Positions 1,208 through 28,303 of a stretch of 56,530 nucleotides of DNA are shown here, piece by piece. Source of the DNA: Microcoleus sp. FACHB-1515 (GTDB lineage Bacteria > Cyanobacteriota > Cyanobacteriia > Elainellales > Elainellaceae); NCBI RefSeq assembly GCF_014696105.1, contig NZ_JACJPO010000048.1, forward strand, positions 1 through 56,530, given 5' to 3'. Numbering within the stretch: position 1 is the stretch's first letter; the number at the start of each line of letters is the position of its first letter. The position numbers were made by a program, and so were the translations under genes. The notes below the pieces were generated by a model, which worked only from the letters and a program-made list of their open reading frames with translations, was not told the DNA's origin and did not search any database.

Positions 1208-3751
1208 CTAAAACTCGATCGATACTGACCCCAAGATTGTCAAGGGAGTACCAGGATTTGCAGTTCTACCAAAACTTGCATTTTGAATGTAATCAATATC
1301 AAAAAGATTCTTGATATTGATAGCGGCTCGAAAATTATTTCGGCGGTAGAAAATGCTGGCGTCTGTGCGGACATAGCCAGGAATTTCATAGTTATTGTCG
1401 AGGTTTCCAGGGCGATCGCTGGCAAAAAATAGACCGATTCCGAATCCTAAACCTTCTAGATTGCCGCTTTGAAGTTCATAGCTTGTCCACAGGCTACCAG
1501 AATTTTGAGGAACATCAGCGAGGCGATTTCCCTCTAATAAACTGCCGCCATCATCAGTGACTTCAGCATCCGTATGGGCATAGGAGGCAATGATGTTCCA
1601 GCCGGAAGCAATCTCGCCAATCACGTCAAATTCGATGCCTCGGCTACGCTGCTCACCGATCGCAATGCTGAAGTCAGTATTGTTGGGATCAGTTACGGCA
1701 ATATTGCGTTTGGTTAGATCGTAAGCGGCTAGATTTGCGATCACTCTGCCGTCAAACAATTCGCCTCTTGCGCCAATTTCAAATTGCGTTCCGCGTTCGG
1801 GTTCTAGCAAATCACCGTCTACGGTTGTGCCGGAGTTTGGTGTGAAAGATTGGCTGAAGCTTGCGTATAGTGATAGCGGTTCGATCGGCTGATAGACGAT
1901 TCCCACACGCGGCGTAAATGCCTCATCTGTTTGACTGGAATCAACGCCATTAAACCTTGAATCTTGCTCGATGATGTCAAATCGTCCACCCACAAGCAGG
2001 ATTAAGTTATCAAGAAGGTCGATTTGATCTTGCACATAAAATCCGATATTGTCAATTTCATCTCGGAAGACAAATCGTTCGGTGAGATCGCTGCGATCGG
2101 GTCGATCGGCCAATCTATATTCTGGATCAAAAATGTTAATCGGTGGTGGTGGAGTGGCGGAGGAGCGATTATCAAATGCATCGGTGATGCGAAGCAAATC
2201 AACCCCAACGAGCAGCGTGTGATTGATCGATCCCGTTGAAAATTCGCCTTGAATGCTACTTTGAATCGAATAGTTCCAGAAGGTCGATTCGTTGTCGCTC
2301 CAGTCCGATCGCGTCAGTTCACCTGTTGCTTCATTGAGCGCTCCGACTCTAGCAAATTGGAAGGAATTGTCGGTCGTAAAAAATCGCACTCCATTTCGGA
2401 GCGTCCAATCATCGCTGAGTTGATGATTCAGTCGTAAAGCCGCACTAAATTCTTCAACGCTAGTGACATCATCAGGTTCACCCAAAATTCGATCGAACGG
2501 AATATCTGCAAGTCCATCACCAAAGGCAATGATGCCGCGATCGAACGGACGCTCATCTCGCAGATATTCAAGTTCCAAAATGAGATCGGTGCGATCGCCA
2601 ATTTCCCAGCTTACAACCGGAGCAATAAACAGTCGTTCAATTCCCTGATCAAAGTCACGAAAGTCATCCGAGCGCTCATAAACAGCATTGAGGCGATAGC
2701 GCAAGGAGCGATCGTCATTTAGCGGGCCTGTGAAATCAATGCTAGGGCGAATTGTGCTGAAACTGCCTCCCTGCAATTCCACCACATACTGCGGATTTTC
2801 TAAAGGTAACTCGGTGACAAAATTGACGATACCGCCCGGTTCCAAATTGCCAAACAGAACGGATGCTGGCCCTCTAAGAACTTCGATCCGCTCAACGTTT
2901 GCCAGTTCTCGAAACGTCCGAAAGTTGCCGCGCTCTAAAAAGCCGTTGCGTAACGTATCAATCGTAAAGAAACCGCGAATCACATAGCTTTCGCGTGAAC
3001 CACCAAACGCATTTCCCTCACCCACGCCGCTGACGTTGCGAAGCGCATCTCGACTGCGAAGAATCTGCTGGTCTTCAATCACCTGCTGGGGAATAATCGA
3101 AATCGATTGGGGAATGTCGCGCAGCGGCGTATCCGTTCGGGTTGCGGTTGTGGCGTTATCGACAACATAGCCTTCTTCCTGAGTGCCCGTCACCACGACT
3201 TCGATTGCATCCTCCTCTGCTCCTGCCGTTTCTGTTCCGGGCGTAACGGCCAGCACCAAGCCGCGATCGATGTTGAAACTGGCAGTCGGCGGTGCATCAA
3301 CTCCGGTGATCGCCACTCGCACTCGGTCTCCTACCAAATCCGTAACGCTCACCAGCGCAATGCCTTCAGCCGGATTCGCCGCTTCAAACTGGTCGCCGTC
3401 CGCCAATGTCAGTACCGCATTTGGGATATCCACAATCAAAGCGTTGCCGACGACAGAGGTAGAAGGAGTCTGCAAGGGTTCGCTGGTTTCCAGCGCGATC
3501 GCCAGCCCTGCTTCCGTCACATTCACCTCAACGCCCGTCACCTGCACCAGCGATTGAGCAATCTGAGCCACCCAAGCGTCGATCGAGGCGGCAGGCTGTT
3601 CAAGCTCGCTCAGTCGGGGAATTTCGGCAGATGGCGTAGGTGCGATCGATGGGATAATCGCTTCCTCAATTCCTTCTGCTTGAGCAGGAAAAGCCGCCAG
3701 GACAGACAACACACTCGCAACAAACGCCAACCGTCGTACCTGATTCATCAC
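1208..3751 (-). CDS. TonB-dependent siderophore receptor with AMIN domain (module A)
   Basis: Outer-membrane ligand-gated barrel for a ferric siderophore, energised by TonB-ExbB-ExbD. The 847 residues hold a signal peptide ending at about AQA (25), an AMIN domain at about 71-170 (includes VGNALIVDIPNAVL and RVRVAITGVDAPP), a TonB-box-like DAIEVVVTG near 181-189, a plug domain from about 208 (LRDIPQSISIIPQQV; ERIEVLRGPASVLFG) and a barrel to a terminal phenylalanine. The AMIN domain between signal and TonB box is typical of cyanobacterial receptors. The gene starts 144 bases after the AraC gene and is followed closely by the binding protein. The gap holds tandem 21-bp repeats and a Fur-like palindrome, so it likely has its own regulated promoter. 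Substrate type cannot be read from the sequence. Confidence 0.93.
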   Translation of the reverse strand: MMNQVRRLAFVASVLSVLAAFPAQAEGIEEAIIPSIAPTPSAEIPRLSELEQPAASIDAWVAQIAQSLVQVTGVEVNVTEAGLAIALETSEPLQTPSTSVVGNALIVDIPNAVLTLADGDQFEAANPAEGIALVSVTDLVGDRVRVAITGVDAPPTASFNIDRGLVLAVTPGTETAGAEEDAIEVVVTGTQEEGYVVDNATTATRTDTPLRDIPQSISIIPQQVIEDQQILRSRDALRNVSGVGEGNAFGGSRESYVIRGFFTIDTLRNGFLERGNFRTFRELANVERIEVLRGPASVLFGNLEPGGIVNFVTELPLENPQYVVELQGGSFSTIRPSIDFTGPLNDDRSLRYRLNAVYERSDDFRDFDQGIERLFIAPVVSWEIGDRTDLILELEYLRDERPFDRGIIAFGDGLADIPFDRILGEPDDVTSVEEFSAALRLNHQLSDDWTLRNGVRFFTTDNSFQFARVGALNEATGELTRSDWSDNESTFWNYSIQSSIQGEFSTGSINHTLLVGVDLLRITDAFDNRSSATPPPPINIFDPEYRLADRPDRSDLTERFVFRDEIDNIGFYVQDQIDLLDNLILLVGGRFDIIEQDSRFNGVDSSQTDEAFTPRVGIVYQPIEPLSLYASFSQSFTPNSGTTVDGDLLEPERGTQFEIGARGELFDGRVIANLAAYDLTKRNIAVTDPNNTDFSIAIGEQRSRGIEFDVIGEIASGWNIIASYAHTDAEVTDDGGSLLEGNRLADVPQNSGSLWTSYELQSGNLEGLGFGIGLFFASDRPGNLDNNYEIPGYVRTDASIFYRRNNFRAAINIKNLFDIDYIQNASFGRTANPGTPLTILGSVSIEF

Positions 3752-3814
3752 TCACACCACCATCAAAAGCGAGAAAGCAAAAGTTCGGCTGCATCTACAG
3801 CCAAATTTCTACAC

Positions 3815-3829
3815 TGAGAAACCTTCTCA
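3815..3829 (-). promoter_or_regulatory. Candidate Fur-like palindrome before module A receptor
   Basis: Perfect inverted repeat, TGAGAA-GGT-TTCTCA in the direction of the receptor gene, also readable as the 7-1-7 form TGAGAAG-G-TTTCTCA expected of a Fur box. It lies about 64-78 bases before the receptor start and just after a possible -10 (TATCTT), so binding there would block transcription. That Fur binds is inference from the half-site resemblance and from similar TGAGAA sites near other genes of this island. Confidence 0.42.
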
Positions 3830-3853
3830 AGAAGATAGCGGGAATCAGCCGTT

Positions 3854-3893
3854 CAATTTGCGCCCGAACCGGAACAATTTGCGCCCAAATCGG
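3854..3893 (-). promoter_or_regulatory. Tandem 21-bp direct repeats, candidate AraC-regulator operator (module A)
   Basis: Two copies of CAATTTGCGCCC (plus-strand reading) begin at 3854 and 3875, exactly 21 bases apart; the match extends to 19 bases with two differences. In the receptor's direction the core is GGGCGCAAATTG. They lie between the AraC gene, whose stop is 3 bases away, and the receptor it probably controls. Two direct repeats spaced two helical turns apart, just before a -10, are the usual layout of AraC/XylS activator sites. A similar arrangement is seen before the module D receptor. Confidence 0.6.
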
Positions 3894-3895
3894 AA

Positions 3896-4867
3896 TTACT
3901 GCTGATTTTGCTTTGAGAACGCCTTGGGATTCACGCCAAACGATTTGCGGAAGACGGCGGCAAAGCGGCTCTGGCTGGCGTACCCCACTGCTTGCGCGGC
4001 TTCGTGAACGTTCATGCGTCCTTCCATCAGCAGCAGCTTTGCTTGCTCCATCCGGTGCTGGCGCAAACAGCCGAATACGGTGGTGTTGAACACTTCGCGA
4101 AAGCCACGCTTGAGAGTGCATTCATTCAGTCCCACCTGTCGGGCAAGCTGCATCAAAGACGGTGGATTATTCAGGTTTTGCAGCAGAATTGCTTTGGCCT
4201 GGTAAATGCGATCGACATCATCTCGATTCAATTTGACAAGCGATCGCTTGCCCTGAGCTTCTGTCTCATCTTCCAACAGCAGCACCATCAGTTCCCAAAC
4301 TTTACTTTCAAGAAACATCCGTTTCGTAAATCCCTGATAGGGACAGTGCAAAATTTGCTGAAGGATAGCTTGCATTGCTGGGGTCGATCGCCCCGAACGA
4401 ACATAGTATTCCTGACTTGGGTTTCTAACTAAATGCTCAAATTCTAAAGGAATCGCTTCAGATTCACGACTCGCAAACGATCGAAATACTTCTGGCTGAA
4501 TGTGAACGCTGACCCAGGCACTCCGCTCTTGAGAGGCTAGTTTCCAAAGCTCGGCGGGACAAGTGCCACTGCCGTAAAGATAGTAAGGAATGTTGGATGT
4601 AGTGCGCTGCTGTTCTGACAGATGAAACGTATATTCTAAGGGATGCTCACTATCAGGAAATGCCGTGATGATGTCGTCATGCACTTGATAGTCAGCGATC
4701 GCCAATTCTAACCCGTCTCGCAATTGAATTTGTCGTACAAAGCCCTGCCCCAATTGCGATGGATAGTTCCAGATCATCTCATCTTTTAAGCCGGAAATAT
4801 TTCGCTCATCCTCCGCACTTTCCTCAAACAGTGCCCAGTAGTCGTGATGTGAAAGGGCGATCGCCAT
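3896..4867 (-). CDS. AraC-family regulator, PchR-like (module A)
   Basis: 323-residue transcription regulator. The C-terminal third is an AraC double helix-turn-helix: PSLMQLARQVGLNECTLKRG is the first HTH, followed by FREVFNTTVFGCLRQHRMEQA and then EAAQAVGYASQSRFAAVFRK with the conserved G-x-S-x-F-x-x-x-F-K signature. The N-terminal two thirds are variable and probably sense the siderophore, as in PchR and YbtA. Start ATG at 4867 is preceded by GAGGAAG. It lies directly upstream of and co-directional with the receptor, as do its three paralogues here. It probably activates the receptor operon when the cognate siderophore enters; this is inference from family and position. Confidence 0.92.
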   Translation of the reverse strand: MAIALSHHDYWALFEESAEDERNISGLKDEMIWNYPSQLGQGFVRQIQLRDGLELAIADYQVHDDIITAFPDSEHPLEYTFHLSEQQRTTSNIPYYLYGSGTCPAELWKLASQERSAWVSVHIQPEVFRSFASRESEAIPLEFEHLVRNPSQEYYVRSGRSTPAMQAILQQILHCPYQGFTKRMFLESKVWELMVLLLEDETEAQGKRSLVKLNRDDVDRIYQAKAILLQNLNNPPSLMQLARQVGLNECTLKRGFREVFNTTVFGCLRQHRMEQAKLLLMEGRMNVHEAAQAVGYASQSRFAAVFRKSFGVNPKAFSKQNQQ

Positions 4868-4954: not shown

Positions 4955-5293
4955 TTACAGAATTCCGTTTAGCGTTAAGACAAATCCAGGTAATACTTCC
5001 TCGCCTGAAATTTCAGTTGAAGAGTGCAAAACTTCAACAGTTCGATCGCTCCGATAAATTTCCACCTGCTGGTCTTGCAGATTGATCAGCCAGCCTAGCT
5101 GCATTCCGTTTTCCAGATATTCCTGCATTTTGGCTTGCACATCTTTCAGTGCATCGCTAGCTGAGCGCAGTTCGATCGCAAAATCAGGACACAGCGGCAG
5201 AAATTTGTTGGGGTCAGGCCGTAAGGCTTTGAGTCGGTCTCGTTTCACCCAAGCCGCATCGGGCGATCGCGAATGAACCGAAAAAGATTCCGT
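4955..5293 (-). pseudogene. Uma2-family endonuclease remnant (N-terminus lost)
   Basis: The reading frame codes for the C-terminal half of a Uma2 (DUF820, PD-(D/E)XK fold) protein: RSPDAAWVKRDRLKAL, then PDFAIELRSASDALKDVQAKM and GWLINLQDQQVEIYR. Full-length members are about 185-200 residues. The frame runs upstream through SRSPDAAWV to an in-frame TAA near 5294-5296 with no start codon before it except an internal GTG at 5248, which would drop the SPDAAWV motif. The N-terminal half is not seen in the sequence up to the ABC gene at 5428. Best read as a truncated, inactive copy, though a short protein from the GTG cannot be excluded. Confidence 0.7.
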
Positions 5294-5427
5294 TTAGGAA
5301 TCAAAAAAATCCCGCTGGGAATCAAATTAATCTTTCAAAATCGTTGCATTCACGCTACGCTAATTGGGTTTAAGTTCTGAGGAATAAAGCATTTCTTGAT
5401 GAATTAACCAGGCAGAAAAGTTTATAA

Positions 5428-7203
5428 ATGAACATTCGGGTGCGTCAGTATTGGAAGCTCTTTGCAACCTATCTGCATTTTCAGCGATCGCGTGTCTTCT
5501 GGCTAGCAGTAACCTTACTGGGCAGCATTGCGCTTCAGTTGATCAATCCACAAGTTTTAGCAAACTTTATTGATGCAGCAGTCGCAGGGGAATCGACTCA
5601 AACATTGCTGCAAACTGCGCTGTTATTTTTGGCGATCGCCCTGCTCACTCAGGGCACAACGCTAGCAGCAACCTATTTCAGTGAACTGGTCGCTTGGACG
5701 GCAACCAATGCTTTGCGATTAGATTTAGCCGATCACTGTTTGCGCCTTGATTTGTCGTTTCACAAAAACTCGACATCGGGCGAACTGGTGGAGCGCGTCG
5801 ATGGCGATGTGAATACGCTCTCGCGCTTTTTTTCGGAATTTATTTTGTATGTGATTAGCAATTTAATTTTGCTGCTCGGTATTTTAATCGTGTTGTGGTT
5901 CACCGATTGGCGAGCCGGATTTGGCTTAACTGCCTTTACGCTGCTGGCGATCGCCCTCTTATTGCGACTGCAATCGATCGCGCTTACTTCTTGGATTGAA
6001 TATCGGCAAATCAACGCAAATTTCTTCGGTTTTTTGAGTGAACATCTGGCCGCAACCGAAGATTTACGGGCAAATGGCGCGATCGAATATGTGATGCGGC
6101 GTTTCTATCATTTGCTGCAACGCTGGCTCCCCTTGTTTCATCGAGCGCGGTGGGGCGGGACGCTGCTGTGGAGTGCGACGGTGGGATTGTTTGCGATTGG
6201 CAATGCGATCGCGCTGAGCATCGGGGCGTATCTGTGGAGTCGTCAGGAAATTTCGATCGGCACGGTTTACCTAATTTTTTCCTACACCAGTTTGCTGCAA
6301 GACCCGATCGAGCAAATTCGCGCTCAGCTTGAAGATTTTCAGCAGGCCGAGGCGAGCATCCACCGGATTCAGGAATTGTTTAACGTGCGATCGCGGTTGA
6401 CAGCGGGGGGCGATCGCACCTTACCTGCGGGCGCGTTGTCCGTCACGTTCGATCGCATCTCGTTTCGCTATCCCGAAGCGATCGAGTCCAACTTCTACAG
6501 CCTGCGCGATCTGTCGTTTGAACTGCCTGCGGGTCAGGTGTTGGGGCTGTTGGGACGCACGGGCAGCGGCAAAACCACGATCGCCCGCTTGCTGTTGCGC
6601 CTGTACGACGTGGAATCGGGGCATTTGCGCTTGGGCGGCGTTGACATTGATCAAGTGGCGATCGCCCAGCTACCGCAGCAGATTGGACTGGTGACGCAGG
6701 ACGTACAGCTTTTTCAAACGACGATTCGCAACAACTTGACCTTCTTCAATCCGCAAATTCACGATGCGGAAATTCTGCGGGCATTGGCTTGGCTGGAACT
6801 GCTGCCCTGGCTGGAGTCGCTGCCGCAGGGATTGGACACGCCACTCGGCGCAGACAATGGCGGCTTGTCGGCAGGACAGGCGCAATTGTTGGCGTTTGTG
6901 CGTGTGTTTCTAAAAAATCCGGGCTTGGTGATTCTCGATGAGGCGTCATCGCGGCTCGATCCGCTGACTGAAAAGCTTGTCGAAGGCGCGATCGATCGCC
7001 TGCTACACAACCGCACGGGCATCATCATCGCGCATCGCCTTTCAACGGTGCAAAGAGCCGATCGCATCTTGATCTTGGAAGCAGGTCAGCGCGTGGAGTT
7101 TGGCGATCGCATTACGCTGGCGAAGCATCCGCAGTCGCGGTTTGCTCAGTTGCTCAAGGCAGGTTCGATCGATCCGCTAGGCTTGACGGGTGGAGACATC
7201 TAA
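5428..7203 (+). CDS. ABC exporter-fold transporter, permease fused to ATPase (module B)
   Basis: 591-residue half transporter: six-helix type-1 exporter membrane domain (about 20-310) fused to an ATPase domain. Walker A is GRTGSGKTT (376-384), Q-loop VTQDVQ, Walker B VILDEAS with the catalytic Glu at about 505, and H-loop AHRLST. The signature is LSAGQ (about 480-484) rather than the canonical LSGGQ. It stands before, and co-directional with, the module B regulator (44 bases). In this setting it may import ferric siderophores, as IrtAB does, or export siderophores. The altered signature matches the defect in the transporter at 17838-19649, so the two are plausible partners. Function is inferred from motifs and context. 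Confidence 0.88.
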   Translation: MNIRVRQYWKLFATYLHFQRSRVFWLAVTLLGSIALQLINPQVLANFIDAAVAGESTQTLLQTALLFLAIALLTQGTTLAATYFSELVAWTATNALRLDLADHCLRLDLSFHKNSTSGELVERVDGDVNTLSRFFSEFILYVISNLILLLGILIVLWFTDWRAGFGLTAFTLLAIALLLRLQSIALTSWIEYRQINANFFGFLSEHLAATEDLRANGAIEYVMRRFYHLLQRWLPLFHRARWGGTLLWSATVGLFAIGNAIALSIGAYLWSRQEISIGTVYLIFSYTSLLQDPIEQIRAQLEDFQQAEASIHRIQELFNVRSRLTAGGDRTLPAGALSVTFDRISFRYPEAIESNFYSLRDLSFELPAGQVLGLLGRTGSGKTTIARLLLRLYDVESGHLRLGGVDIDQVAIAQLPQQIGLVTQDVQLFQTTIRNNLTFFNPQIHDAEILRALAWLELLPWLESLPQGLDTPLGADNGGLSAGQAQLLAFVRVFLKNPGLVILDEASSRLDPLTEKLVEGAIDRLLHNRTGIIIAHRLSTVQRADRILILEAGQRVEFGDRITLAKHPQSRFAQLLKAGSIDPLGLTGGDI

Positions 7204-7247: not shown

Positions 7248-8189
7248 GTGGCGATTTGCCTTTCAAGTGTGGACTATGCGGAACTGTGGCAGGACGATCG
7301 TTCAGCAGCTTCTTCGATCGAATCAGTGCGGGTTTGCTCTACCAAAGTGGGAAGAGGCTATAAGCGCTGGATTCAGCTTCGAGACATGACGCTTTTGATT
7401 CATGATTACGAGCTATCAGAAGATTTATTCGTTGAGTATTCCAGCGAAGAGGCAGGCGAAATCGGATTAGAGTTTGGATTTCAGCTATTGGGAAATCGCT
7501 GCGATCGACAGTCAGGTCAAAACTTTTTATACGGCGGCTTCAGCGAAGACGGAGAAGCGATCGCAGAATTTTTAAGCGATCGAATTTTGCAGGTAGATAT
7601 TCACTTAAACTCAATTCAGCAGCTTTGCCGCTTCGCGTCACAGGGCTTAGATGGTTTGCCTGAAGATCTTCAGCAGCTATTAGCAGACGATCGCAGTTTG
7701 GAATACGGCGATGTAGCCGCAATTACGCCTGCGATGAGAACTGCGCTAGAGCAACTGTTGAACTGTCCTTATGTCGGAATTACGCGACAGCTTTATCTGG
7801 AAAGTCGCTGTTTGGAATTAATTGCCTTGAAGTTGGAGCAGCTATCCGATCGCAAGCTCGAATCGAAATTAAAACCAGACGACGTCGATCGCATTCATCA
7901 GGCAAAAGATATTTTGAGCGATCGCCTTGACAATCCTCCTTCGTTAATCGAACTCGCCAGACAGGTCGGGCTAAATGACTACAAGCTGAAAGTTGGCTTT
8001 CGGGAAGTGTTTGGCACAACGGCATTTGGCTATCTGCGCCAGCACCGGATGGAGCGAGCGAGTCAGCTTCTTTCGGAAGGTCGGCTCAACGTGAAAGAAG
8101 TGGCGCGATCGGTCGGATATGCGAATCAAAGTCGGTTTGCGGCAGCGTTTCGGCAGCAGTTTGGCGTGAATCCGAAATCCTACAGATAG
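7248..8189 (+). CDS. AraC-family regulator, PchR-like (module B)
   Basis: 313 residues, GTG start preceded by a GGAG motif. C-terminal AraC DNA-binding domain: PPSLIELARQVGLNDYKLKV (first HTH), FREVFGTTAFGYLRQHRME, then VARSVGYANQSRFAAAFRQQ and GVNPKSYR. The N-terminal sensor region resembles the other three regulators (GYKRWIQLRDMTLLIHDY). It precedes the module B receptor by about 120 bases and presumably controls it. Ligand unknown; a ferric siderophore is the natural guess from the PchR/YbtA relatives. Confidence 0.92.
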   Translation: MAICLSSVDYAELWQDDRSAASSIESVRVCSTKVGRGYKRWIQLRDMTLLIHDYELSEDLFVEYSSEEAGEIGLEFGFQLLGNRCDRQSGQNFLYGGFSEDGEAIAEFLSDRILQVDIHLNSIQQLCRFASQGLDGLPEDLQQLLADDRSLEYGDVAAITPAMRTALEQLLNCPYVGITRQLYLESRCLELIALKLEQLSDRKLESKLKPDDVDRIHQAKDILSDRLDNPPSLIELARQVGLNDYKLKVGFREVFGTTAFGYLRQHRMERASQLLSEGRLNVKEVARSVGYANQSRFAAAFRQQFGVNPKSYR

Positions 8190-8202
8190 AAATCCCTCAG
8201 CA

Positions 8203-8238
8203 GCGCAAAAAGATCCGTTTGCGAGCCAAAGCGATCGC
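8203..8238 (+). promoter_or_regulatory. Weak 21-bp spaced repeat, candidate regulator site (module B)
   Basis: GCGCAAAAAGATCCG at 8203 resembles the module A repeat reading GCGCAAATTGTTCCG (12 of 15). A second, weaker copy (AGCCAAAG) starts 21 bases later at 8224 and runs into a HIP1 octamer. Same position, between regulator stop and receptor start, as in modules A and D. The second half is weak evidence. Confidence 0.3.
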
Positions 8239-8312
8239 CAATAGTCCAACGCTAGCCTGTAATCTTTTTGCTAAGGATTATCAACTAAACGGTTTGCTGA
8301 AGGTGTGGTGTG

Positions 8313-10892
8313 ATGTTAACTCAGTTCCGGTTTTTGGTTTGGAGCGTTGCTTTCTCAGCGCTGGCTGCTCCGGCGATCGCGTCCGGTACAGGTTCGCAAT
8401 CCAGCGCGGATCAACCTGCAACCACCGTAGAGGAATGGGTCAGCCAAATTCAGCAAGATGAATCTACCAATCAAGCGGTCATTGAGATTACGAATGTCTT
8501 AGTTAACCCAACAGAAACGGGTGTCGAAATCGTTCTCGAAACAGCAGGCGGCGAATTGTCAATACCCGCGACTCAGGTGTTAGGAAATGCGCTGATTGCA
8601 GATATTCCCAACGCTTCGATCGCTGAACCTTTTGAACAGGTAGAACCGACAGAGGGAATTGCTTTTGTGGAGGTGATTGGCTTACCGGGACGAGTCCGCA
8701 TTGCCATCACTGGATCGGATGCACCGCCAACAGTGAACATCAGCACGAACACACAGCAGCTTATTGTTAGCGCGATTGCTGGATCTGAAGGTGATGCGAT
8801 CGCTGAAGAAAACACAATTAATGTGATCACAACGGCAACTCGGACGGAAGAAGAACTGCAAGATGTGCCGCGATCGGTGACGGTGATTACTCGTGAAGAA
8901 ATTGATGAGCAAAGCCGTTTAACTCGCAACTTTGGTGATATTTTGTCCCAACTGTTACCAGGGTTTAGTGCGCCAACCGGACGCACAAATACTTTTGGTC
9001 AAACGCTGCGAGGACGTGAATTTTCCGTTCTGATTGATGGCATTCCCCAAAATACAAACCTCGGCTCAATTCCTGCTGCACTGACAACGATCGATCCGCA
9101 ATCGATCGAGCGAATTGAAGTTTTGCGTGGTCCCAATGCGGTTTATGGCGGCCAGGCAACAGGCGGTTTAATTAACATCATTACGCGCCGCCCTGAAGCA
9201 GGCGTGACCAACACGATCGAGGTGGGCGTGAACGCTGCTGCGGGTGGAGGTGACAGTTTTCTGCTGGGCGACAGTTTCGGCTATAACCTGCGCTATTCGC
9301 TATCAGGAACAACAGGCAATTTTGACTGGTTGGGCAGCTTATCGTATGTTCCAACGGGTGCATTTTTTGATGCCGAGGGCGATCGAATTCCAAGCGATCT
9401 GGTCAATGCTGATACTGAAGAATTAAATGGGCTAATTCGATTGGGTCTGGATTTGAGTGAAGCAGAACGCTTACAGTTCACGTTCAATCATTTTCGTCAG
9501 CTTCAAGATACTGATGTTTTCAGCGATCCCGCGATCGACTTGCTTCCAGGAATTCAAGAAGCGCGAGCAATCCTAATTCCTGACGAATCACGAGTGATTG
9601 GCGCACCAGAAGATGCGTCTTTAACAACAACAAACTTGACCCTGCAATACCTCAATGATGACTTGCTTAATAGCGAAGTGCAGGGACAAATTTACTACCG
9701 CAACTATGCTTTTGTCGGTGGTAGACCAACTGACAATCGCGAGTTTTTCGGCGTGATTTCTCAGTCTCCCGGCGAAACTGAGCAGTGGGGTGGTCGCTTA
9801 CAAATTGATACGCCTTTGGACTCAGAAGACACGGTTAGTTTGCTTTGGGGTGTTGACTATGTGAACGAAAATAGTTCACAGCGATTCAATCTGTTTGACC
9901 CGGAAGAATTTGATGAAAGCGGCGGCTTAATTTTCCGCAAAATCGATGAAATTGATTTCGTTCCACCTTACACATTGAGCGATCTAGGCCTGTTTGCTCA
10001 GCTTCAGTGGGAACTTTCCGATCGACTCATTCTCAGCGGCGGCACACGCTATGTCAATCTCAACATCAGCACCAACGACTACACAACCTTTGACGGCAAC
10101 GACATTGAAGGCGGCACAATTAATGCTGATGCGTTTGTTTTCAATGCTGGAGTTGTATTTGAATTTACCGACGAAATTAGCGCATTTGCAAGTTTTTCGC
10201 AGGGCTTTTCTTTGCCAGATATTGGTCGAGTGTTGCGGTCTGCGCCTCCTGGATTTGCAGTCGAAGCAGACGTAGATTTAACCGAACCTCAACGGGTAGA
10301 TAACTATGAAATTGGGGTGCGCGGCAGTTGGAATTCGCTGCAAGCATCGATCGCCGGATTCTACAACTATTCTGCTTTGGGAACTGATTTTGCAGCCGTG
10401 CCTAGAGGACCATTGAGAACAATTCGCGCTCCCCAGCGAGTGTATGGAATTGAAGCCGCGATCGACTGGCAACCGAGCAATGGATGGGCTTTGGGTGGCA
10501 CGGCAATCTGGCTAGAAGGCGAAAATGATGAAGACCGCGATGGCGATTATCTTGCCCTCAACAGCATTACGATTCCGCCATTCAAATTGACAACTTATGT
10601 TGAGAATGAAACGCTTTCCGGATGGCGAAATCGCCTTCAACTTCTTTTTTCAGGTTCCCGCGATCGAGCTTTTGAAGATGCAGTGGACGGCGTACCAATC
10701 GAGAGCTACGTCACCTTAGATTTCTTAAGCAGTATTCAGGTTGGAGAAGGAGAACTTCTGATCGGCATTCAGAATCTCTTGAATGAAGAATACTTCCCAG
10801 TTTTCTCTCAGTATCTTTCGCCATTTGCTGACAGCCTTAATCGTCCCGGTCAAGGTAGAACTGTCAGTTTGACCTATCGAATTTCGTTCTAA
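8313..10892 (+). CDS. TonB-dependent receptor with AMIN domain, divergent type (module B)
   Basis: About 859 residues from the ATG at 8313 (a GTG lies one codon before); AAGGTG serves as ribosome site. Signal peptide ends near PAIASG (25), AMIN domain about 58-150 (VLGNALIADIPNASI; RVRIAITGSDAPP), plug from about 175 with NVITTATRTEEELQDVPRSV and SIERIEVLRGPNAVYGG, then a barrel ending in ISF. Unlike the other three receptors it lacks the EVVVTG-type TonB box, having ENTINVITTATRTEE instead, and the plug includes SVLIDGIPQNTN. It therefore probably takes a different substrate. Followed after about 50 bases by its binding protein. Confidence 0.92.
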   Translation: MLTQFRFLVWSVAFSALAAPAIASGTGSQSSADQPATTVEEWVSQIQQDESTNQAVIEITNVLVNPTETGVEIVLETAGGELSIPATQVLGNALIADIPNASIAEPFEQVEPTEGIAFVEVIGLPGRVRIAITGSDAPPTVNISTNTQQLIVSAIAGSEGDAIAEENTINVITTATRTEEELQDVPRSVTVITREEIDEQSRLTRNFGDILSQLLPGFSAPTGRTNTFGQTLRGREFSVLIDGIPQNTNLGSIPAALTTIDPQSIERIEVLRGPNAVYGGQATGGLINIITRRPEAGVTNTIEVGVNAAAGGGDSFLLGDSFGYNLRYSLSGTTGNFDWLGSLSYVPTGAFFDAEGDRIPSDLVNADTEELNGLIRLGLDLSEAERLQFTFNHFRQLQDTDVFSDPAIDLLPGIQEARAILIPDESRVIGAPEDASLTTTNLTLQYLNDDLLNSEVQGQIYYRNYAFVGGRPTDNREFFGVISQSPGETEQWGGRLQIDTPLDSEDTVSLLWGVDYVNENSSQRFNLFDPEEFDESGGLIFRKIDEIDFVPPYTLSDLGLFAQLQWELSDRLILSGGTRYVNLNISTNDYTTFDGNDIEGGTINADAFVFNAGVVFEFTDEISAFASFSQGFSLPDIGRVLRSAPPGFAVEADVDLTEPQRVDNYEIGVRGSWNSLQASIAGFYNYSALGTDFAAVPRGPLRTIRAPQRVYGIEAAIDWQPSNGWALGGTAIWLEGENDEDRDGDYLALNSITIPPFKLTTYVENETLSGWRNRLQLLFSGSRDRAFEDAVDGVPIESYVTLDFLSSIQVGEGELLIGIQNLLNEEYFPVFSQYLSPFADSLNRPGQGRTVSLTYRISF

Positions 10893-10921
10893 TTTTCAGC
10901 AAAAAAATCGAGAAAGGTTCT

Positions 10922-10948
10922 ATGAAAACGCAGGCTGTTAAATTTTGA
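10922..10948 (+). other. Eight-codon upstream reading frame overlapping the start of the next gene
   Basis: ATG at 10922, preceded by GAGAAAGG, codes for MKTQAVKF and stops at TGA 10946-10948. The stop overlaps the TTG start of the binding-protein gene (TTGA arrangement). It could be a leader for translational coupling, or mark a frameshifted original start of the binding protein. Whether it is translated is unknown. Confidence 0.35.
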
Positions 10949-12009
10949 AAGTTTTGCTTCAGTCGATTTGTAAGCTTCGCCGTCATTTCGATCGATTGCC
11001 AAAGACGCGATCGATCGATCGCATTGTGCAGCTTAGCTTTCTTGCGATTTTGATGCTCTTGCAGATTGCAGCCTGTGGAGAACTTCACTCACCCAAACTA
11101 GAGCAATCCGCTCAAAACTGTCGAATTATTGAACATGATGTAGGACAAACTCACCTCTGCAAACCACTCCAATCGATCGCCGCTCTTAGTCCTCATGTCC
11201 TGGATATAATGTTGGCGCTTGGCGTTGAGCCTGATGCTTATGCCGATGTTTCTGTACTTAATCAGCGTCGATTTGATCAGCCAGCAAAACAAATTCGCTA
11301 TTTGGGTAGCCGTATGACCAAGCAGCCAATTAACTTAGGCGATCGCCATAGTCCAGCTTTAGAAACGCTTGCTTTTTTGAAGCCCAATTTAATTTTGGGC
11401 GAAGCTTGGCAGGGGTCTCAAGGTCAATATGATCTGCTCTCGAAAATTGCTCCAACTGCCCTCTTTGAAGATCAACCAGTGGGCGGTTGGCGACGCAGTA
11501 TCGAGGGAATTGCAAAAGCGATCGATCGCCAAGATCGAGTGTCGTTCATTCTCGCGGCTCAAGAACAGCGGATTATCAATGCTCGACAAGCATTATCACC
11601 CGTTGTTGCAATTCATCCTCGAATGCTGCTGTTAAGTTCTGGCAGTTTGGCGGCTGGTTTTTATATGTTTGGTCAAGAGCCAGATTTATACTCGACACTG
11701 ATCGAAAAATTGGGGTTTCAACTGGTTCGAGTTGACAGTTTCGATGCTCCAATTTCTGTTGAAAGGCTCTCTAAAATTGATACGGATTCAATCATTGTTA
11801 TCTCTTGGGATGAAGCAGATAATGCAAATCCTTCTGCTTGGCAGCGGCGGCAGCAAGAATGGAATCAAATTCCCGTCTTAAATGCACTAAAAGTTTCTCA
11901 AGCAGGCCGAGTGTACTTTATGGATGCTCATTTAACGACGCTGCGCGAACCGATCGCAGAAGAACTCATTCTTCAAGATCTTCTCAAACTGCTTGCCCCC
12001 TCCAATTAA
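10945..12009 (+). CDS. Iron-siderophore substrate-binding lipoprotein (module B)
   Basis: 354 residues from a TTG start; no ATG or GTG in frame precedes the signal. The N-terminus is long before the lipobox LQIAAC (Cys about 44), so an internal start is possible. Family features: CRIIEHDVGQTHLC, ALSPHVLDIMLALGVEP, LKPNLILGEAW and a C-terminal EELILQDLLKLL helix. It closely resembles the module C protein (AVSIERLSKIDTDSI versus SLSIEVLPEINADLI type segments). Probably binds a ferric siderophore after import by the upstream receptor. The coding frame continues after its TAA into a relic of another binding-protein C-terminus. Confidence 0.88.
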   Translation: MKVLLQSICKLRRHFDRLPKTRSIDRIVQLSFLAILMLLQIAACGELHSPKLEQSAQNCRIIEHDVGQTHLCKPLQSIAALSPHVLDIMLALGVEPDAYADVSVLNQRRFDQPAKQIRYLGSRMTKQPINLGDRHSPALETLAFLKPNLILGEAWQGSQGQYDLLSKIAPTALFEDQPVGGWRRSIEGIAKAIDRQDRVSFILAAQEQRIINARQALSPVVAIHPRMLLLSSGSLAAGFYMFGQEPDLYSTLIEKLGFQLVRVDSFDAPISVERLSKIDTDSIIVISWDEADNANPSAWQRRQQEWNQIPVLNALKVSQAGRVYFMDAHLTTLREPIAEELILQDLLKLLAPSN

Positions 12010-12191: not shown

Positions 12192-13178
12192 ATGACGTTG
12201 CTTCTTTCAGAAAAAGAGTTACAGCCTGCTGAATGCGAAACTTGCGATCGGACAAATCACGATCGATCGGGTAGCTATGAACTCGCGATTGCATCGACTG
12301 AAACAAATAGTCGAGGATACAAGCGATCGATCAATTTGCGGCACGGGCTGAATTTATTAATTCGAGATTATTGGCTGCAAGATGCCCTAGTCGAAGAAAG
12401 CTTGTCTCGTGCGTCTGGACTAGAGCTAGAGTTTGGCTTCAATTTATTCGCTGATCGCTCAATGGATGAGGGCGATTCAAATTCCTGTAGCTTTTTGCAA
12501 TTTGGTCAAACGAAAACTGAGGATAGCTTTCAGGAATGGCAATCTCAAAGCAGAATTCTAAAAATTGATCTGCACCTGACGACTCGCGATCAGGAAGTGT
12601 TTGAGGATGATCAGTTGGCATTAATTCCGCTGGAACTACGAGAGGCGATCGCGCCAGTCAATGAAGACTGGTATCAGCCTGTTGGGTCGATCACGCCTGC
12701 GGTTGAAGTTGTGCTTCAGCAAATTCTCAACTGCCCCTATCAAGGTTCAATTCAGCAAATCTATCTGGAGGGAAAAGCCCTCGAACTAATTGCTCTACAA
12801 ACCGCACAATTTCTGAATACGAGCAAAAATCAGCCAACTCATCGGCTCAAATCTTCGGATGTTGAGCGAATTCGCCAAGCAAAAGAGCTAGTTACAAATC
12901 GACTCGAAAACCCGCCCTCGCTGCTGGAATTAGCTCGTCTAGTCGGACTTAATGACTGCACACTCAAGCGCGGCTTTCGTCAAACATTTGGGACAACTGT
13001 GTTTGGCTATATTCGACAGCAGCGACTCGCAAAAGCGCAGCAGTTGCTATTAGAAACCGAGATGAATGTGGCTGAAGTTGCCTGTGCCGTTGGCTATTCT
13101 CATCCGGGCAATTTTGCGGCAGCGTTTAAGCAAGAATTCGGCATCAGTCCGAAAGCATTTTCTCGTTCCGTCTGGTGA
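12192..13178 (+). CDS. AraC-family regulator, PchR-like (module C)
   Basis: 328 residues with the same architecture as its paralogues: variable sensor region (SRGYKRSINLRHGLNLLIRD) and C-terminal AraC domain with PPSLLELARLVGLNDCTLKR, FRQTFGTTVFGYIRQQRLA and VACAVGYSHPGNFAAAFKQE. Starts 60 bases after the binding-protein relic. The receptor begins about 108 bases downstream, so the regulator probably controls it in response to one siderophore. Confidence 0.92.
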   Translation: MTLLLSEKELQPAECETCDRTNHDRSGSYELAIASTETNSRGYKRSINLRHGLNLLIRDYWLQDALVEESLSRASGLELEFGFNLFADRSMDEGDSNSCSFLQFGQTKTEDSFQEWQSQSRILKIDLHLTTRDQEVFEDDQLALIPLELREAIAPVNEDWYQPVGSITPAVEVVLQQILNCPYQGSIQQIYLEGKALELIALQTAQFLNTSKNQPTHRLKSSDVERIRQAKELVTNRLENPPSLLELARLVGLNDCTLKRGFRQTFGTTVFGYIRQQRLAKAQQLLLETEMNVAEVACAVGYSHPGNFAAAFKQEFGISPKAFSRSVW

Positions 13179-13229
13179 CTAAAAAATTCCGCCTCACAGC
13201 AGACGCGATCGCCCCATCTACTCTATAGT
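13177..13229 (+). promoter_or_regulatory. Candidate promoter and weak 21-bp spaced repeat, module C receptor
   Basis: A segment GACTAAAAAATTCCG at 13177 and a second, AGCAGACGCGATCGC, 21 bases later at 13198 match the module B pair in part, but the second match is mostly the HIP1 octamer. A good -10, TATAGT, lies at 13224-13229. The block GACGCGATCGCCCC followed by CTCTATAGT is shared with the module D promoter region (CTCTTTACAGT). Confidence 0.3.
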
Positions 13230-13285
13230 TCCCCTAGCTATTTGAAAATGATTTGCAGCTAGCAAGCGATTTTGGTGTGAGCAAC

Positions 13286-15769
13286 GTGAATTACAGGCAG
13301 TTGGGGTACAAAGTTCTAATCAGCTTGGCAGGTGCGATCGCCGCAGTCTTGCCCGCTCAAGCCCAAAATCGCCCAGCAACCACAGTGGAAGCGTGGCTTG
13401 CCCAAGAATCAATTTACCTGGCGCAGTCCGCAGCTTCGGTAATTGGGGTACAGGCCAACGCGACCGAGACAGGCTTGGAAGTGCTGCTGGAAACTGAGGG
13501 CGCGATCGCCACCCCAACTACTTCGGTAATCGGTAACGCGCTGATTGCCGACATTCCCAATGCAGTTTTGGCATTACCGGAAGGCGACGAGTTTCTGTTA
13601 GAAAATCCGGCTGAAGGAATTGCGCTGATTACCGTTTCACCCAGAAGAGATGGAATTCGAGTCGCGATTACAGGACTCGATGCGCCGCCGATCGCAGAAG
13701 TGGAAACGGCAGAACAAGGATTGCTTTTGAGCGTTGCGATCGGAACAGAAACAACTGGAGAAATTGAGGATTCGATCGAGGTTGTCGTCACCGGAGAACA
13801 AGACGAAGATTACTTTGTTCCTGATGTTGAAGTTGGCACTCGAACCGATACGCCGCTGCGCGATATTCCCTTTTCAATTCAAGTCATTCCTGAGCAGGTT
13901 TTAGAAGACCAGCAGCCCCGCAGCATCACCGAGGTGATTCGCAATGTTCCAGGAATTACGATCGTCAATCCGCCTCAATTTGTCTCCGAAGATTTCTTCT
14001 TCAGTCGAGGTTTTGAAACGGATGTTACGCTGAACGGACTGCGCGATACAACCCTGGGAACAACAGGTTCAGCCCTGGTCAATCTTGAGCGCATTGAAGT
14101 GTTAAGAGGGCCAGCAGGCGCACTGTTTGGATCGGGCGCACCCGGCGGAACGATTAACCTTGTAACCCGCCAGCCTCAAAGCGAATCTGCTTACGAAATT
14201 GAAGGCAGCATCGGCAGTTTCAACACCTATGAAGGATCGATCGATTTCACGGGTTCACTCAACGCCGATGACACGCTGCTTTATCGCTTCAGTGCCTCTG
14301 CTTCTCAGCTTGGAAATGAAGGATTTGCACCAGAATCCGAGCGATATTTCATTGCGCCTGTTCTCACCTGGCAGATGAGTGATGATACTCAAATTACCTT
14401 TGAAGGTCAGTATTTTGCGGGCTGGAGTCCGAATGGATTTGGGCTTCCGGCGATCGGCACAATCTTTGAGAATCCCAACGGTGATATTCCTCGCGATCGC
14501 TACATTGGTGAACCTTCTTTTGACCAGAACGATCGCCAAGTTGGACGAGTTGGCTACAACTTTGAACACCGCTTCAGCGAGAATTGGCAGTTGCAAAATT
14601 CATTTCGAGCTTCTTTTCAGCAGTTTGAAGAAAACGTCGTTTCTGGAATTGAACTGTTAGAAGATAATCGGACATTAATCAGAAGCGCAGGCTTCAGCGA
14701 CGCTTATCGCAATGTCTACCTGCTTGATACAAATGTTGTTGGCAACTTTGAAACAGGCAGCATCGCTCATCAGCTACTCTTTGGATTTGATCTATCGACT
14801 GACTTTTTTGAAGTCACATTTGGAGAAGCTGAAATCGCTCCCCTAGATTTGTTTGATCCGGTTTATGGATCTGAAACGGTGGGCGAATCGCGGCGAGATG
14901 AAAATCCATTTGCTCAAACGATCGATCGCTTGGGAATTTTCCTGCAAGATCAAATCACGCTTCTGCCTAATTTAAGAGTTCTGCTAGGCGGACGCTTCGA
15001 CATCATCAGCCAGGAAGCAGAATTTGCGGGTGATGTCGATTTTCAGCAGGATGAAGCGTTTAGTCCTCGATTTGGCATTGTTTATCAGCCCAGTGAAACG
15101 GTTTCACTTTACGGCAGCTACAGCCGCTCTTTTGAGCAGACAGCGGGGACAACATTCGATCGCGAACTGTTTGAACCGATTCGCGGTACTCAATACGAAA
15201 TTGGCGTCAAGGTAGACTGGTTAGAAGATCTATCCACCACTTTAGCGCTGTATGAAATCACCCGCACCAATGTCTTAACTGATGACCCAGAGAATCCCGG
15301 TTTTTCAATTCAAACGGGCGAACAGCGCAGCCGAGGCGTTGAGCTTAATGTTACAGGAGAAATTTTGCCGGGATGGAATGTGATTGGCGGCTATGCCTAT
15401 ACCGATGCTGAAATTACTGAAGACAATGTGTTTGAAGTTGGAAATTCCCTGGCTGGAATTCCAGAACACGCTGTTAGCTTGTGGACAACTTATGAAATTC
15501 GATCGGGTTCTTTAGAAGGCTTAGGATTTGGTTTAGGGTTGTTCTATGTGGGTGAACGACAGGGAACTTTGGAAAACTCATTTACCTTGCCTGACTATCT
15601 TCGTACCGATGCTGCACTGTACTACCGCCGCAATGATTTTCGCGCTGCGCTAAATGTCAGAAATCTCTTTGATGTAGAGTACTTTGAAACTCCGCTCAAT
15701 AGCGATGATCTGTCTTTGCTTGCGGGCTTTCCCTTTACTGTACAATTCACGCTAGGGTGGCAGTTTTAA
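13286..15769 (+). CDS. TonB-dependent siderophore receptor with AMIN domain (module C)
   Basis: Close relative of the module A and D receptors. The frame opens at a TTG (13253), but the GTG at 13286 places the signal peptide (LISLAGAIAAVLPAQA) at the N-terminus and is preferred. Domains (numbered from the TTG): AMIN about 62-162 (SVIGNALIADIPNAVL), TonB-box-like DSIEVVVTG near 173-181, plug with LRDIPFSIQVIPEQVLEDQQ and LERIEVLRGPAGALFGSG, barrel ending GWQF. The barrel has the family segments TGEQRSRGVELNVTGE and LRTDAALYYRRNDFRAALN. Its stop lies within 9 bases of the binding-protein ATG, indicating a common transcript. Confidence 0.92.
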   Translation: MNYRQLGYKVLISLAGAIAAVLPAQAQNRPATTVEAWLAQESIYLAQSAASVIGVQANATETGLEVLLETEGAIATPTTSVIGNALIADIPNAVLALPEGDEFLLENPAEGIALITVSPRRDGIRVAITGLDAPPIAEVETAEQGLLLSVAIGTETTGEIEDSIEVVVTGEQDEDYFVPDVEVGTRTDTPLRDIPFSIQVIPEQVLEDQQPRSITEVIRNVPGITIVNPPQFVSEDFFFSRGFETDVTLNGLRDTTLGTTGSALVNLERIEVLRGPAGALFGSGAPGGTINLVTRQPQSESAYEIEGSIGSFNTYEGSIDFTGSLNADDTLLYRFSASASQLGNEGFAPESERYFIAPVLTWQMSDDTQITFEGQYFAGWSPNGFGLPAIGTIFENPNGDIPRDRYIGEPSFDQNDRQVGRVGYNFEHRFSENWQLQNSFRASFQQFEENVVSGIELLEDNRTLIRSAGFSDAYRNVYLLDTNVVGNFETGSIAHQLLFGFDLSTDFFEVTFGEAEIAPLDLFDPVYGSETVGESRRDENPFAQTIDRLGIFLQDQITLLPNLRVLLGGRFDIISQEAEFAGDVDFQQDEAFSPRFGIVYQPSETVSLYGSYSRSFEQTAGTTFDRELFEPIRGTQYEIGVKVDWLEDLSTTLALYEITRTNVLTDDPENPGFSIQTGEQRSRGVELNVTGEILPGWNVIGGYAYTDAEITEDNVFEVGNSLAGIPEHAVSLWTTYEIRSGSLEGLGFGLGLFYVGERQGTLENSFTLPDYLRTDAALYYRRNDFRAALNVRNLFDVEYFETPLNSDDLSLLAGFPFTVQFTLGWQF

Positions 15770-15777
15770 GGCAACGA

Positions 15778-16842
15778 ATGAGGAGTAAGCAGCATCGAAA
15801 TATCCACTGGAAACGGATTATTTTTCAGTTGATCTTAGGGATTGCTGCTTCCCTTTTGGTGGGAGGCTGTAGCGATCGATTGCCTTCCATTTCCATCACC
15901 CCAATGGCCGATCGCTCCGGCGATTGTCGCGTGATTCAACATGAAATGGGAGAAACAACGGTATGCGGCCAACCTCAAAGAATTGTTGCGCTTGATCCGC
16001 ATATTCTTGATAGTATCTTGGCCTTGGGTGTTCAGCCGATCGCCTATGCCGAAAGCAGACTGCTAGACTTTGAACAGTTTAACCTTCCAGCCGAGCAAAT
16101 TCCTTATCTAGGCGATCGCATTACAACGAAGCCGCTGAATTTGGGCGATCGTCGCAATCCATCGATCGAAAGGATTCTTCAAGTAAAGCCAGATTTAATC
16201 TTGGGGGAAAGATGGCTGCATGAAGGCCATTATGATCGATACTCAAAAATTGCTCCAACGCTACTATTTAGCGATATCGGTGAAAATAGCGAGCAACATT
16301 GGAAGAACGATATTAAAGAAATTGCGAAAGCAGTGAATCGAGAATCTGAAGCCCAGCAACTTCTAGAAAAATTTCCTCAAAAAATAGCAACGGTACGAAA
16401 CAAGTTAGCTTCCGTTGTTGCTGCTTATCCTCACGTTTTGGTAGCCAGTTGGGATTCATTAACGAGTACGATTAGCATTGGACCAACCTCAGCCGGAAGA
16501 CTATTAGAGGCGATCGGATTTGAGCTAGTCAATACTTCAACAACGAATTTTGGTGAATGGGTTTCGCTATCGATCGAAGTTCTACCTGAAATTAATGCCG
16601 ATCTCATTTTTGTGATGGGAACGACACCAGAGTTTTATAATCCAGAAGCGCAACTCAGATCCAAATGGAAAGACCAACCGCTTCTCGCTTCCTTACCCAG
16701 TTCACAAGCAGGTCGCATATTTTTTGTCGATCAGCATCTTTGGATCAGTCAAATTCGCGGTCCAATTACAGATGAATTAATCCTTGAGCAAATTTTTCAG
16801 CTTCTACTGCCTCTAACCGATCGCCAGGAAAGCAAAGTATGA
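15778..16842 (+). CDS. Iron-siderophore substrate-binding lipoprotein (module C)
   Basis: Preferred start is the ATG at 15778; a GTG at 15757 in frame would overlap the receptor. Lipobox LLVGGC puts the lipid-bearing Cys at about 31. Family motifs: CRVIQHEMGETTVC, PQRIVALDPHILDSILALG, VKPDLILGERW and ITDELILEQIFQLL. Most like the module B binding protein. The stop overlaps the ATG of the ferredoxin-like gene by 4 bases (ATGA), so the two are translationally coupled, which ties that protein to siderophore uptake. Confidence 0.9.
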   Translation: MRSKQHRNIHWKRIIFQLILGIAASLLVGGCSDRLPSISITPMADRSGDCRVIQHEMGETTVCGQPQRIVALDPHILDSILALGVQPIAYAESRLLDFEQFNLPAEQIPYLGDRITTKPLNLGDRRNPSIERILQVKPDLILGERWLHEGHYDRYSKIAPTLLFSDIGENSEQHWKNDIKEIAKAVNRESEAQQLLEKFPQKIATVRNKLASVVAAYPHVLVASWDSLTSTISIGPTSAGRLLEAIGFELVNTSTTNFGEWVSLSIEVLPEINADLIFVMGTTPEFYNPEAQLRSKWKDQPLLASLPSSQAGRIFFVDQHLWISQIRGPITDELILEQIFQLLLPLTDRQESKV

Positions 16843-20410: not shown

Positions 20411-20519
20411 AATCGCCGTTCTCCAGCATGGTGACAGCTTCAATTTAGCATGGGAGTTGCGGCATCATGAATGCTGCTGCGTCCAAGGCTTAAGCAAACG
20501 ATCTATTGAAATTATCATG

Positions 20520-25663: not shown

Positions 25664-25685
25664 ATGGCGGTTTTTGGATAGACGC
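25644..25685 (+). promoter_or_regulatory. Tandem 21-bp direct repeats, candidate AraC-regulator operator (module D)
   Basis: TGGCGGTTTTTGGAT occurs at 25644-25658 and again at 25665-25679, 15 of 15 identical with a 21-base period. The first copy includes the AraC gene's last codons and its unit reaches across the stop codon. A -10-like TACAGT follows near 25.70 kb. Same spacing and place as the module A repeats, different core. Confidence 0.6.
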
Positions 25686-25765
25686 GATCGCCCCGCACTC
25701 TTTACAGTAGCTCTATTCCGCTAAACGGGAATTATTTGCAATTAGAGCTTGCTGGAGTGAGGGTG

Positions 25766-28291: not shown

Positions 28292-28303
28292 GGGGTAGGA
28301 TTG

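Follow-up and report, generated by a model that had tools for sequence, protein, structure and literature searches.

The window analysed here, a 56,530-nt stretch of the Microcoleus sp. FACHB-1515 genome, carries four modules of the same build. In each of them (4/4), the gene for an AraC-family regulator is followed by one for a TonB-dependent receptor with an AMIN domain and then by one for a periplasmic binding protein, which is the order characteristic of PchR/IutR-type systems. Module A lies at the left end of the window on the minus strand. It comprises RegA, a PchR/IutR-like AraC-family regulator (3896-4867; Pfam HTH_18, 2e-21), the TonB-dependent siderophore receptor A with its AMIN domain (1208-3751; Pfam; TIGR01783, 2e-134) and a periplasmic binding protein (192-1175; Pfam Peripla_BP_2). 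Module B spans 7248-12009 (RegB, 7248-8189; receptor B, 8310-10892), module C 12192-16842 (RegC, 12192-13178; receptor C, 13253-15769) and module D, with RegD, receptor and binding protein, 24674-29272. With the TIGR01783 siderophore-receptor model, receptors A, C and D score above the cut-off and receptor B just under it (216.5 vs 223.5). The best-covered named relatives of RegA are cyanobacterial; a distant blastn search of the locus against plasmids returned two partial regulator matches only.

The predicted structure of RegA (mean pLDDT 58) is poor outside the DNA-binding domain, while block means for residues 211-320 are 75-92. Two helix-turn-helix motifs are present in the model, formed by helices 238-245/249-260 and 287-293/299-310; their second helices, 249-260 and 299-310, are the recognition helices. 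No Pfam family matched the N-terminal domain, and hence the ligand is assigned by analogy only: the RegA signal is probably a ferric siderophore. Between RegA and the ABC transporter genes there is a truncated gene for a Uma2-family endonuclease (4955-5293, minus strand), which covers the C-terminal part of the profile only (Pfam 1.2e-26); a further Uma2 gene is located at 19709-20443 on the same strand.

The 144-nt gap between RegA and receptor A contains a tandem repeat. The 12-mer CAATTTGCGCCC is found at 3854-3865 and again at 3875-3886, with a spacing of exactly 21 bp, as the sequence-only reading had stated. That reading gave a unit match of 17 of 19 positions and a 3-bp distance to the regulator stop; when counted, the units 3854-3874 and 3875-3895 (minus strand) share 19 of their 21 bases at lag 21, and the pair directly abuts the RegA stop codon (3896-3898). 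None of 20,000 dinucleotide shuffles of the gap reached 19/21 at lag 21. Five places in the whole window have 19/21 at lags of 15-40, and the four besides module A are all inside long open reading frames (ORFs). A 21-nt pattern with two degenerate positions and at most three mismatches identifies these two places only, both in the window and in the 5.79-Mb genome. With three mismatches allowed, the 12-mer CAATTTGCGCCC shows no enrichment in the window (64 occurrences vs 81 expected), and its exact form is not generally conserved at orthologous loci; the family motif was therefore learned from other loci. A palindromic reading was discarded, the two inverted pairs in 3700-4000 being both short and imperfect. 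Elsewhere in the window, lag-36 repeats at 21371-21512, inside a TonB_C-containing ORF (21286-23091, minus strand), are probably coding repeats.

Conservation at orthologous loci had been proposed as a check, and the 21/22-bp architecture is indeed kept there. Relatives of the regulator were searched in 117 genomes, giving 114 distinct regulators, 88 of which are followed by a receptor ORF that opens no more than 700 nt away. For each of these gaps, the best ungapped repeat was determined with a 16-nt window at lags 15-40, ties being shared. Lag 21 was best in 50.4 gaps and lag 22 in 15.0 (65.4 together), vs an average of 0.94 for each of the other 24 lags; in shuffled gaps lag 21 was best in 3.5. 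Repeats matching at 12 or more of 16 positions were present at lag 21 in 41/88 gaps and at lag 22 in 14/88, against a mean of 0.62 for other lags and 0.35 for lag-21 shuffles. The control regions gave few repeats of this strength: upstream of the same regulators 1/83 at either lag, inside the regulators 1/88 (lag 21) and 3/88 (lag 22), and after the receptors 1/59 and 0/59, respectively. When the regulators were clustered at 60% identity, lag 21 was best in 32.5 and lag 22 in 10.5 of 60 (43.0/60 together). The remaining 26 of the 114 regulators, which lack a detected downstream receptor, were set aside; 25 of these were evaluated and gave a weaker signal (lag 21 best in 6.0, lag 22 in 3.5).

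A position weight matrix (PWM) derived from the receptor strand of the 88 gaps has the half-site consensus AAAAAwTCCGyyTaG. With lags of 10-60 allowed, its best dimer falls at lag 21 or 22 in 73/88 gaps, and 71/88 have a lag-21/22 dimer scoring at least 18; no dimer of this score was detected in 17/88 training gaps and 19/75 of the held-out gaps described below. Applied to module A, the PWM predicts an upstream half-site 1 at 3881-3901 and a promoter-proximal half-site 2 at 3860-3880, both on the minus strand. This dimer reads CAGTAATTCCGATTTGGGCGC AAATTGTTCCGGTTCGGGCGC from 3901 down to 3860, with a lag of 21 and a score of 24.7 (scored over 3863-3901 with the 18-nt PWM) compared to up to 45.1 for the best site; the A-rich stretches of module A are degraded. 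The closest site match is that of locus L009, whose regulator is 58% identical, and a GGCGC end is common to both sites. At module A, the two half-sites are direct, not inverted, and about two helical turns apart, as in sites of the AraC/XylS type.

The AraC-type assignment made in the sequence-only reading is supported by this lag architecture and, as discussed below, by helix covariation, prediction in new genomes and the distance to the -10 element; its unit, on the other hand, has to be shifted by about 6 nt. The predicted functional unit runs into the last codon of RegA and its TAA stop (3896-3898), both of which are included in half-site 1, and the informative strand is the receptor-sense one. 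In 29 of 127 dimers, the motif begins exactly 16 nt ahead of where the regulator stop codon ends, which means that half-site positions 13-15 are the stop codon. Collectively, the sequence pattern suggests that the predicted operator of module A is one instance of an operator of PchR/IutR-like regulators found across many sampled cyanobacterial relatives. Among seven named plasmid loci, three have a PWM dimer at lag 21/22 (NIES-970, PCC 7002 and Acaryochloris), and the Gloeocapsopsis dulcis locus, with no receptor near, has one at lag 24. The two Leptolyngbya loci and that of Gloeocapsa have no PWM dimer, and their top self-repeat is at lag 21 (11 or 12/16). Three further PCC 7002 modules yielded one PWM dimer (lag 22), one lag-22 repeat seen by eye and, in the last, nothing. 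Inspection by eye also revealed three half-site-like copies in a row in L092 (regulator 1923-2958, minus strand) and in L113 (about 5990-6070), those in L113 at lag 24.

Do the bases of the half-sites follow the residues of the recognition helices? In the covariation counts, dimers scoring below 18 were excluded, as were cases of disagreement between the halves from the residue-base tables. The two halves agree at 15.1/21 positions within a dimer vs 11.3/21 between dimers. This excess is confined to positions 6 and 11-20 and absent from the A-rich stretch, which argues against a simple recent duplication and fits the same variable bases being read by two subunits of one protein. The adjacent 21-mers of module A are near-identical, as a recent local tandem duplication without function would leave them. 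We consider this origin very improbable, given that the spacing is shared by most other regulator-receptor gaps, whose sequences differ, that no within-dimer excess exists at the A-rich positions, and that the covariation with the recognition helices is predictive.

For the preferred reading, a site bound by RegA, the covariation data point to particular residues. Site similarity tracks similarity of the DNA-binding domain when the N-terminal domain is allowed for (partial rank correlation 0.31; 0/500 permutations). Mutual information over approximately 310 protein columns ranks column 251 and then 250 at the top for site position 6, and the top columns for positions 14, 16, 17, 19 and 20 are all within 296-303. 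In the model, these columns fall on or immediately ahead of the N-terminal ends of the two RegA recognition helices. By covariation, each half-site would hence be read by both helix-turn-helix motifs of one subunit. For positions 11, 12, 15 and 18, the top columns (98, 273, 230 and 276, respectively) are weaker, and column 98 falls outside the DNA-binding domain. Position 6 also correlates with the N-terminal columns 95 and 79, less than with 251 and 250. We attribute such signals to shared ancestry. A tree built from the N-terminal domain requires 12 changes for position 6 (T vs any other base) and 13 for residue 251, against at least 30 in shuffles, so that the number of independent events is about a dozen rather than 127.

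Among the 127 dimers, the residues at 250-251 are related to the base at position 6 as follows: Cys-Thr goes with T (44), Tyr-Lys with A (25) and Arg-Lys with G (15). The rarer pairs are Phe-Thr with T (6), Phe-Lys with A (6), His-Lys with C (3) or A (2), and Cys-Lys with C (3) or A (1); the two halves differ at this position in 17/127 dimers. By the residue-base tables, half-site 2 of module A agrees with the residues of RegA: its T at position 6 with Cys250-Thr251, its G at 16 with Arg301 and its C at 20 with Gln299. Position 19 breaks the rule that Ala303 goes with T or C (30/32 training dimers), since RegA has Ala303 and its site a G; L009 alone does likewise. A hand alignment places Trp42 and Arg46 of MarA at RegA residues 250 and 254. 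In MarA, the helix-3 residues Trp42, Gln45 and Arg46 contact bases (PMC3315485).

Four predictions were fixed beforehand, and they held in the 32 genomes outside the first 117 that were then examined. These genomes gave 77 regulator-receptor pairs, of which 75 were kept (two shared 85% or more identity with training sequences and were removed; median best identity 56%). The best lag was 21 in 39.2/75 and 22 in 14.2/75 (53.4 together), and lag 20 was somewhat raised (5.0/75). Residue-base counts were made on 56 dimers scoring at least 18, at positions with both halves agreeing. At position 6, Thr251 goes with T in 22/22 and Lys251 with A, G or C in 23/23. For residue 299, Arg corresponds to C (16/16), Leu to A (4/4) and Gln to A or C (4/4), while for residue 303, Ala corresponds to T or C at position 19 (23/23) and Ser, Cys or Asn to A (17/18). 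With the agreement filter off and counting per half-site, Lys251 goes with a base other than T in 54/54 and Thr251 with T in 48/52. In a cognate ranking, each site was scored against regulators not closely related to its own, with features picked on overlapping data; the mean percentile of the true regulator was 0.943 and the median 0.972 (n = 127 sites; null 0.5). When the code was trained without the window loci, each of the sites A, B and C fitted its own regulator best among five regulators of this genome.

Downstream of half-site 2, a -10-like hexamer, TATCTT (3832-3837, minus strand), lies 43 nt from the half-site start. Counted from the same point, TAnnnT occurs at offset 53 in 59/127 dimers and at offset 42/43 in 53/127 (shuffles 2.7 and 6.3, respectively), and 109/127 have it at one or more of these offsets vs about 9 in shuffles. 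The promoter of module A belongs to the near class (offset 43). The offsets are 10-11 bp apart, i.e., one helical turn, a spacing to be expected of an activator that has to approach the polymerase on one and the same face of the helix. With TATCTT as the -10 element, half-site 2 would be positioned at about -55 to -35, and roughly half of the related sites are located a further turn upstream. An octamer resembling GCGATCGC was noticed by eye in many loci between the operator and the -10, at an offset of about 24-31 from half-site 2; HIP1, as this octamer is called, is common in cyanobacteria. Closer to the receptor gene, GGTGTG is present at 3753-3758 (minus strand), ahead of the receptor A start. 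This hexamer precedes the receptor start in 77/127 loci, compared to 8-54 for other 6-mers of the same letters, mostly 4-8 nt ahead of an ATG, and is perhaps a ribosome-binding element. Its position suggests the ATG at 3748 as the likelier start of receptor A.

Just after the -10-like hexamer there is an inverted repeat, TGAGAAGGTTTCTCA (3815-3829, minus strand), that resembles a Fur site and constitutes a putative box at the promoter, as in Fur-regulated promoters. Such boxes were scored by agreement at 10 or more of 14 letters with a 7-1-7 Fur consensus. A match at offsets 45-74 is present in 95/127 dimers vs 3.3 in shuffles. The Anabaena FurA consensus shares ATTCTCA with the consensus used (PMC4005646). 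The proximity of this box to the repeat would also suit a scheme in which Fur or an unrelated regulator reads the repeat and RegA acts elsewhere. The Fur-like box is, however, a separate inverted repeat downstream, and the bases of the direct repeat covary predictively with the recognition helices of the adjacent AraC-type regulator; we regard this scheme as hardly credible.

In another scheme, RegA binds the site mainly as a repressor, or for autoregulation at the end of its own gene. Here, the overlap of half-site 1 with the RegA stop codon and the recurrence of the 16-nt register (29/127 dimers) could be cited, as could Pseudomonas PchR, which is described as both activating and repressing (PMC8477383). 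Against this scheme, the site is upstream of the -10 and not over it, only one of 141 strong dimers is classed as upstream of a regulator gene, and Synechocystis cells lacking all three IutR genes no longer induce their iron-uptake genes (PMC11221513). We therefore judge this scheme improbable, and activation of the receptor gene by RegA is the role assumed in what follows.

The 141 distinct dimers are those scoring at least 27 in 2.16 Mb, i.e., the window and related stretches, where 113 dimers at or above this score are at lag 21 and 35 at lag 22, with at most 9 at any other lag of 15-30. Of the 141, 92 are in regulator-receptor gaps, 23 precede a receptor without a detected regulator, 5 follow a regulator without a detected receptor, 1 precedes a regulator and 20 are elsewhere; since the stretches were chosen for holding such modules, these shares are not genome-wide. 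Eleven of the 20 (the window's included) precede, as judged by eye, the start of an ABC-transporter-like ORF comparable to 5428-7203, and 6 are without a listed ORF. A strict degenerate pattern gave five matches in the own genome, none on the contig of the window; it misses known sites and is hence not a regulon survey.

Within the window, predicted dimers are also found in module C between RegC and receptor C (13160-13201, plus strand; score 24.7) and, weaker, in the gap between RegB and receptor B (8186-8227, plus strand; 22.9). Module D is not matched by the PWM and has a variant 21-bp tandem repeat, TGGCGGTTTTTGGAT twice (25644-25679, plus strand), perfect over 15 nt at lag 21 (25644-25658 and 25665-25679). 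The first copy of TGGCGGTTTTTGGAT is inside the RegD coding sequence and the RegD stop falls between the copies. This half-site differs from the others; the sites of L104, L108 and L109 look related by eye, and module D and its lookalikes possibly form a variant specificity class.

The top dimer score of the window, 37.7 (scored over 5282-5320), belongs to a second predicted operator dimer at 5282-5323 (plus strand), upstream of a gene for an ABC transporter with membrane and ATPase domains in one protein (5428-7203, plus strand; Pfam). The open frame of the Uma2 remnant ends beside this dimer; an operator-like pair (4957-4995; score 21.7), located where the same truncated gene ends, is regarded as chance or a relic. 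The transporter gene is a probable second target: related ABC ORFs with enough upstream sequence are preceded by a lag-21/22 dimer scoring at least 25 in 12/28 cases (window's own included; 11/27 elsewhere), and none of the 28 has a dimer of that score at another lag. The scores of the site with RegA (8.9) and RegB (8.7) are nearly the same. RegB starts 44 nt after the ABC gene, and on this basis our guess is an operon of the two under the control of RegB.

Taken together, we hold with high confidence that the tandem repeat is the RegA operator; two RegA DNA-binding domains would be bound head-to-tail, with predicted activation of the receptor gene and a putative AND gate with Fur. The sequence data indicate that the repeat is very probably the docking site of the iron-uptake regulator controlling the neighbouring receptor gene. 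In this model, the two DNA-binding domains would occupy half-sites 21 bp, or two helical turns, apart. The first helix-turn-helix motif (residues 250, 251 and 254) would read the 5′ part, i.e., position 6, beside the TCC core after the A-rich stretch, and the second (296-303) would read positions 14-20 one turn on. The dimer, spanning about -76 to -35 with TATCTT as the -10, would end next to or over the -35 region and recruit RNA polymerase. The Fur-like box over the start would hold the promoter off under plentiful iron. Expression would then require both iron starvation, releasing Fur, and the signal sensed by RegA.

We also find it likely, from covariation in sequence, that a natural recognition code of the AraC family links the PchR/IutR-like regulators of cyanobacteria to the promoters of their receptors. 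Residues 250-251 would set base 6 and residues 298-303 bases 16-20, paralogues would be insulated from each other, and a receptor or a shared ABC transporter could be matched to its regulator from sequence. For base 6, the rules would be T for Cys-Thr or Phe-Thr, A for Tyr-Lys or Phe-Lys, G for Arg-Lys, and C or A for His-Lys. With the operator defined, the regulator of a receptor should become predictable from sequence. Moreover, DNA specificity in this family would become directly testable through more than 100 natural regulator-site pairs whose residue-base rules are nearly deterministic.

The closest known system is that of Synechocystis sp. PCC 6803, where, as in module A, the gene for an AraC-family regulator is upstream of a TonB-dependent transporter gene (PMC11221513). 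The PchR-like IutR1-3 bind TonB-dependent transporter promoters with differing specificity, as seen by gel shift and yeast one-hybrid analysis; IutR is needed for induction of iron-uptake genes under iron deficiency, and joint control with FurA has been proposed (PMC11221513). The main text of that study does not use the term "direct repeat" and, as far as we found, gives no spacing or residue-base rule; its three ChIP motifs are in a figure. Among the literature matches listed (title and start of abstract; subscription journals and figures outside the scope), we found no description of the operator or the code. In Pseudomonas aeruginosa, the AraC-type PchR and Fur control siderophore genes, with ferric pyochelin as the effector (PMC8477383, PMC8725597, PMC3672683); the likeness is in regulator type and the pairing with Fur. 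For the operator, the nearest parallels are the sites of XylS (TGCA-N6-GGNTA-N6-TGCA-N6-GGNTA) and MekR (CACC-N5-CTTCAA-N6-CACC-N5-CTTCAA), which consist of two consecutive direct half-sites with, when counted, a period of 21 nt as here (PMC4514859). The cyanobacterial sites differ from these in having a TCCG core after an A-rich stretch and a second promoter class approximately one turn upstream (offset 53). As for specificity, residue-base correlation has been applied to MerR, LacI and other families, in a text where "AraC" does not occur (PMC5045206). Respecification of MarA relied on laboratory selection of variants (PMC3315485), whereas the pairs described here are natural regulators with tandem sites. 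The operator itself belongs to a known type, and the residue-base code is the novel part.
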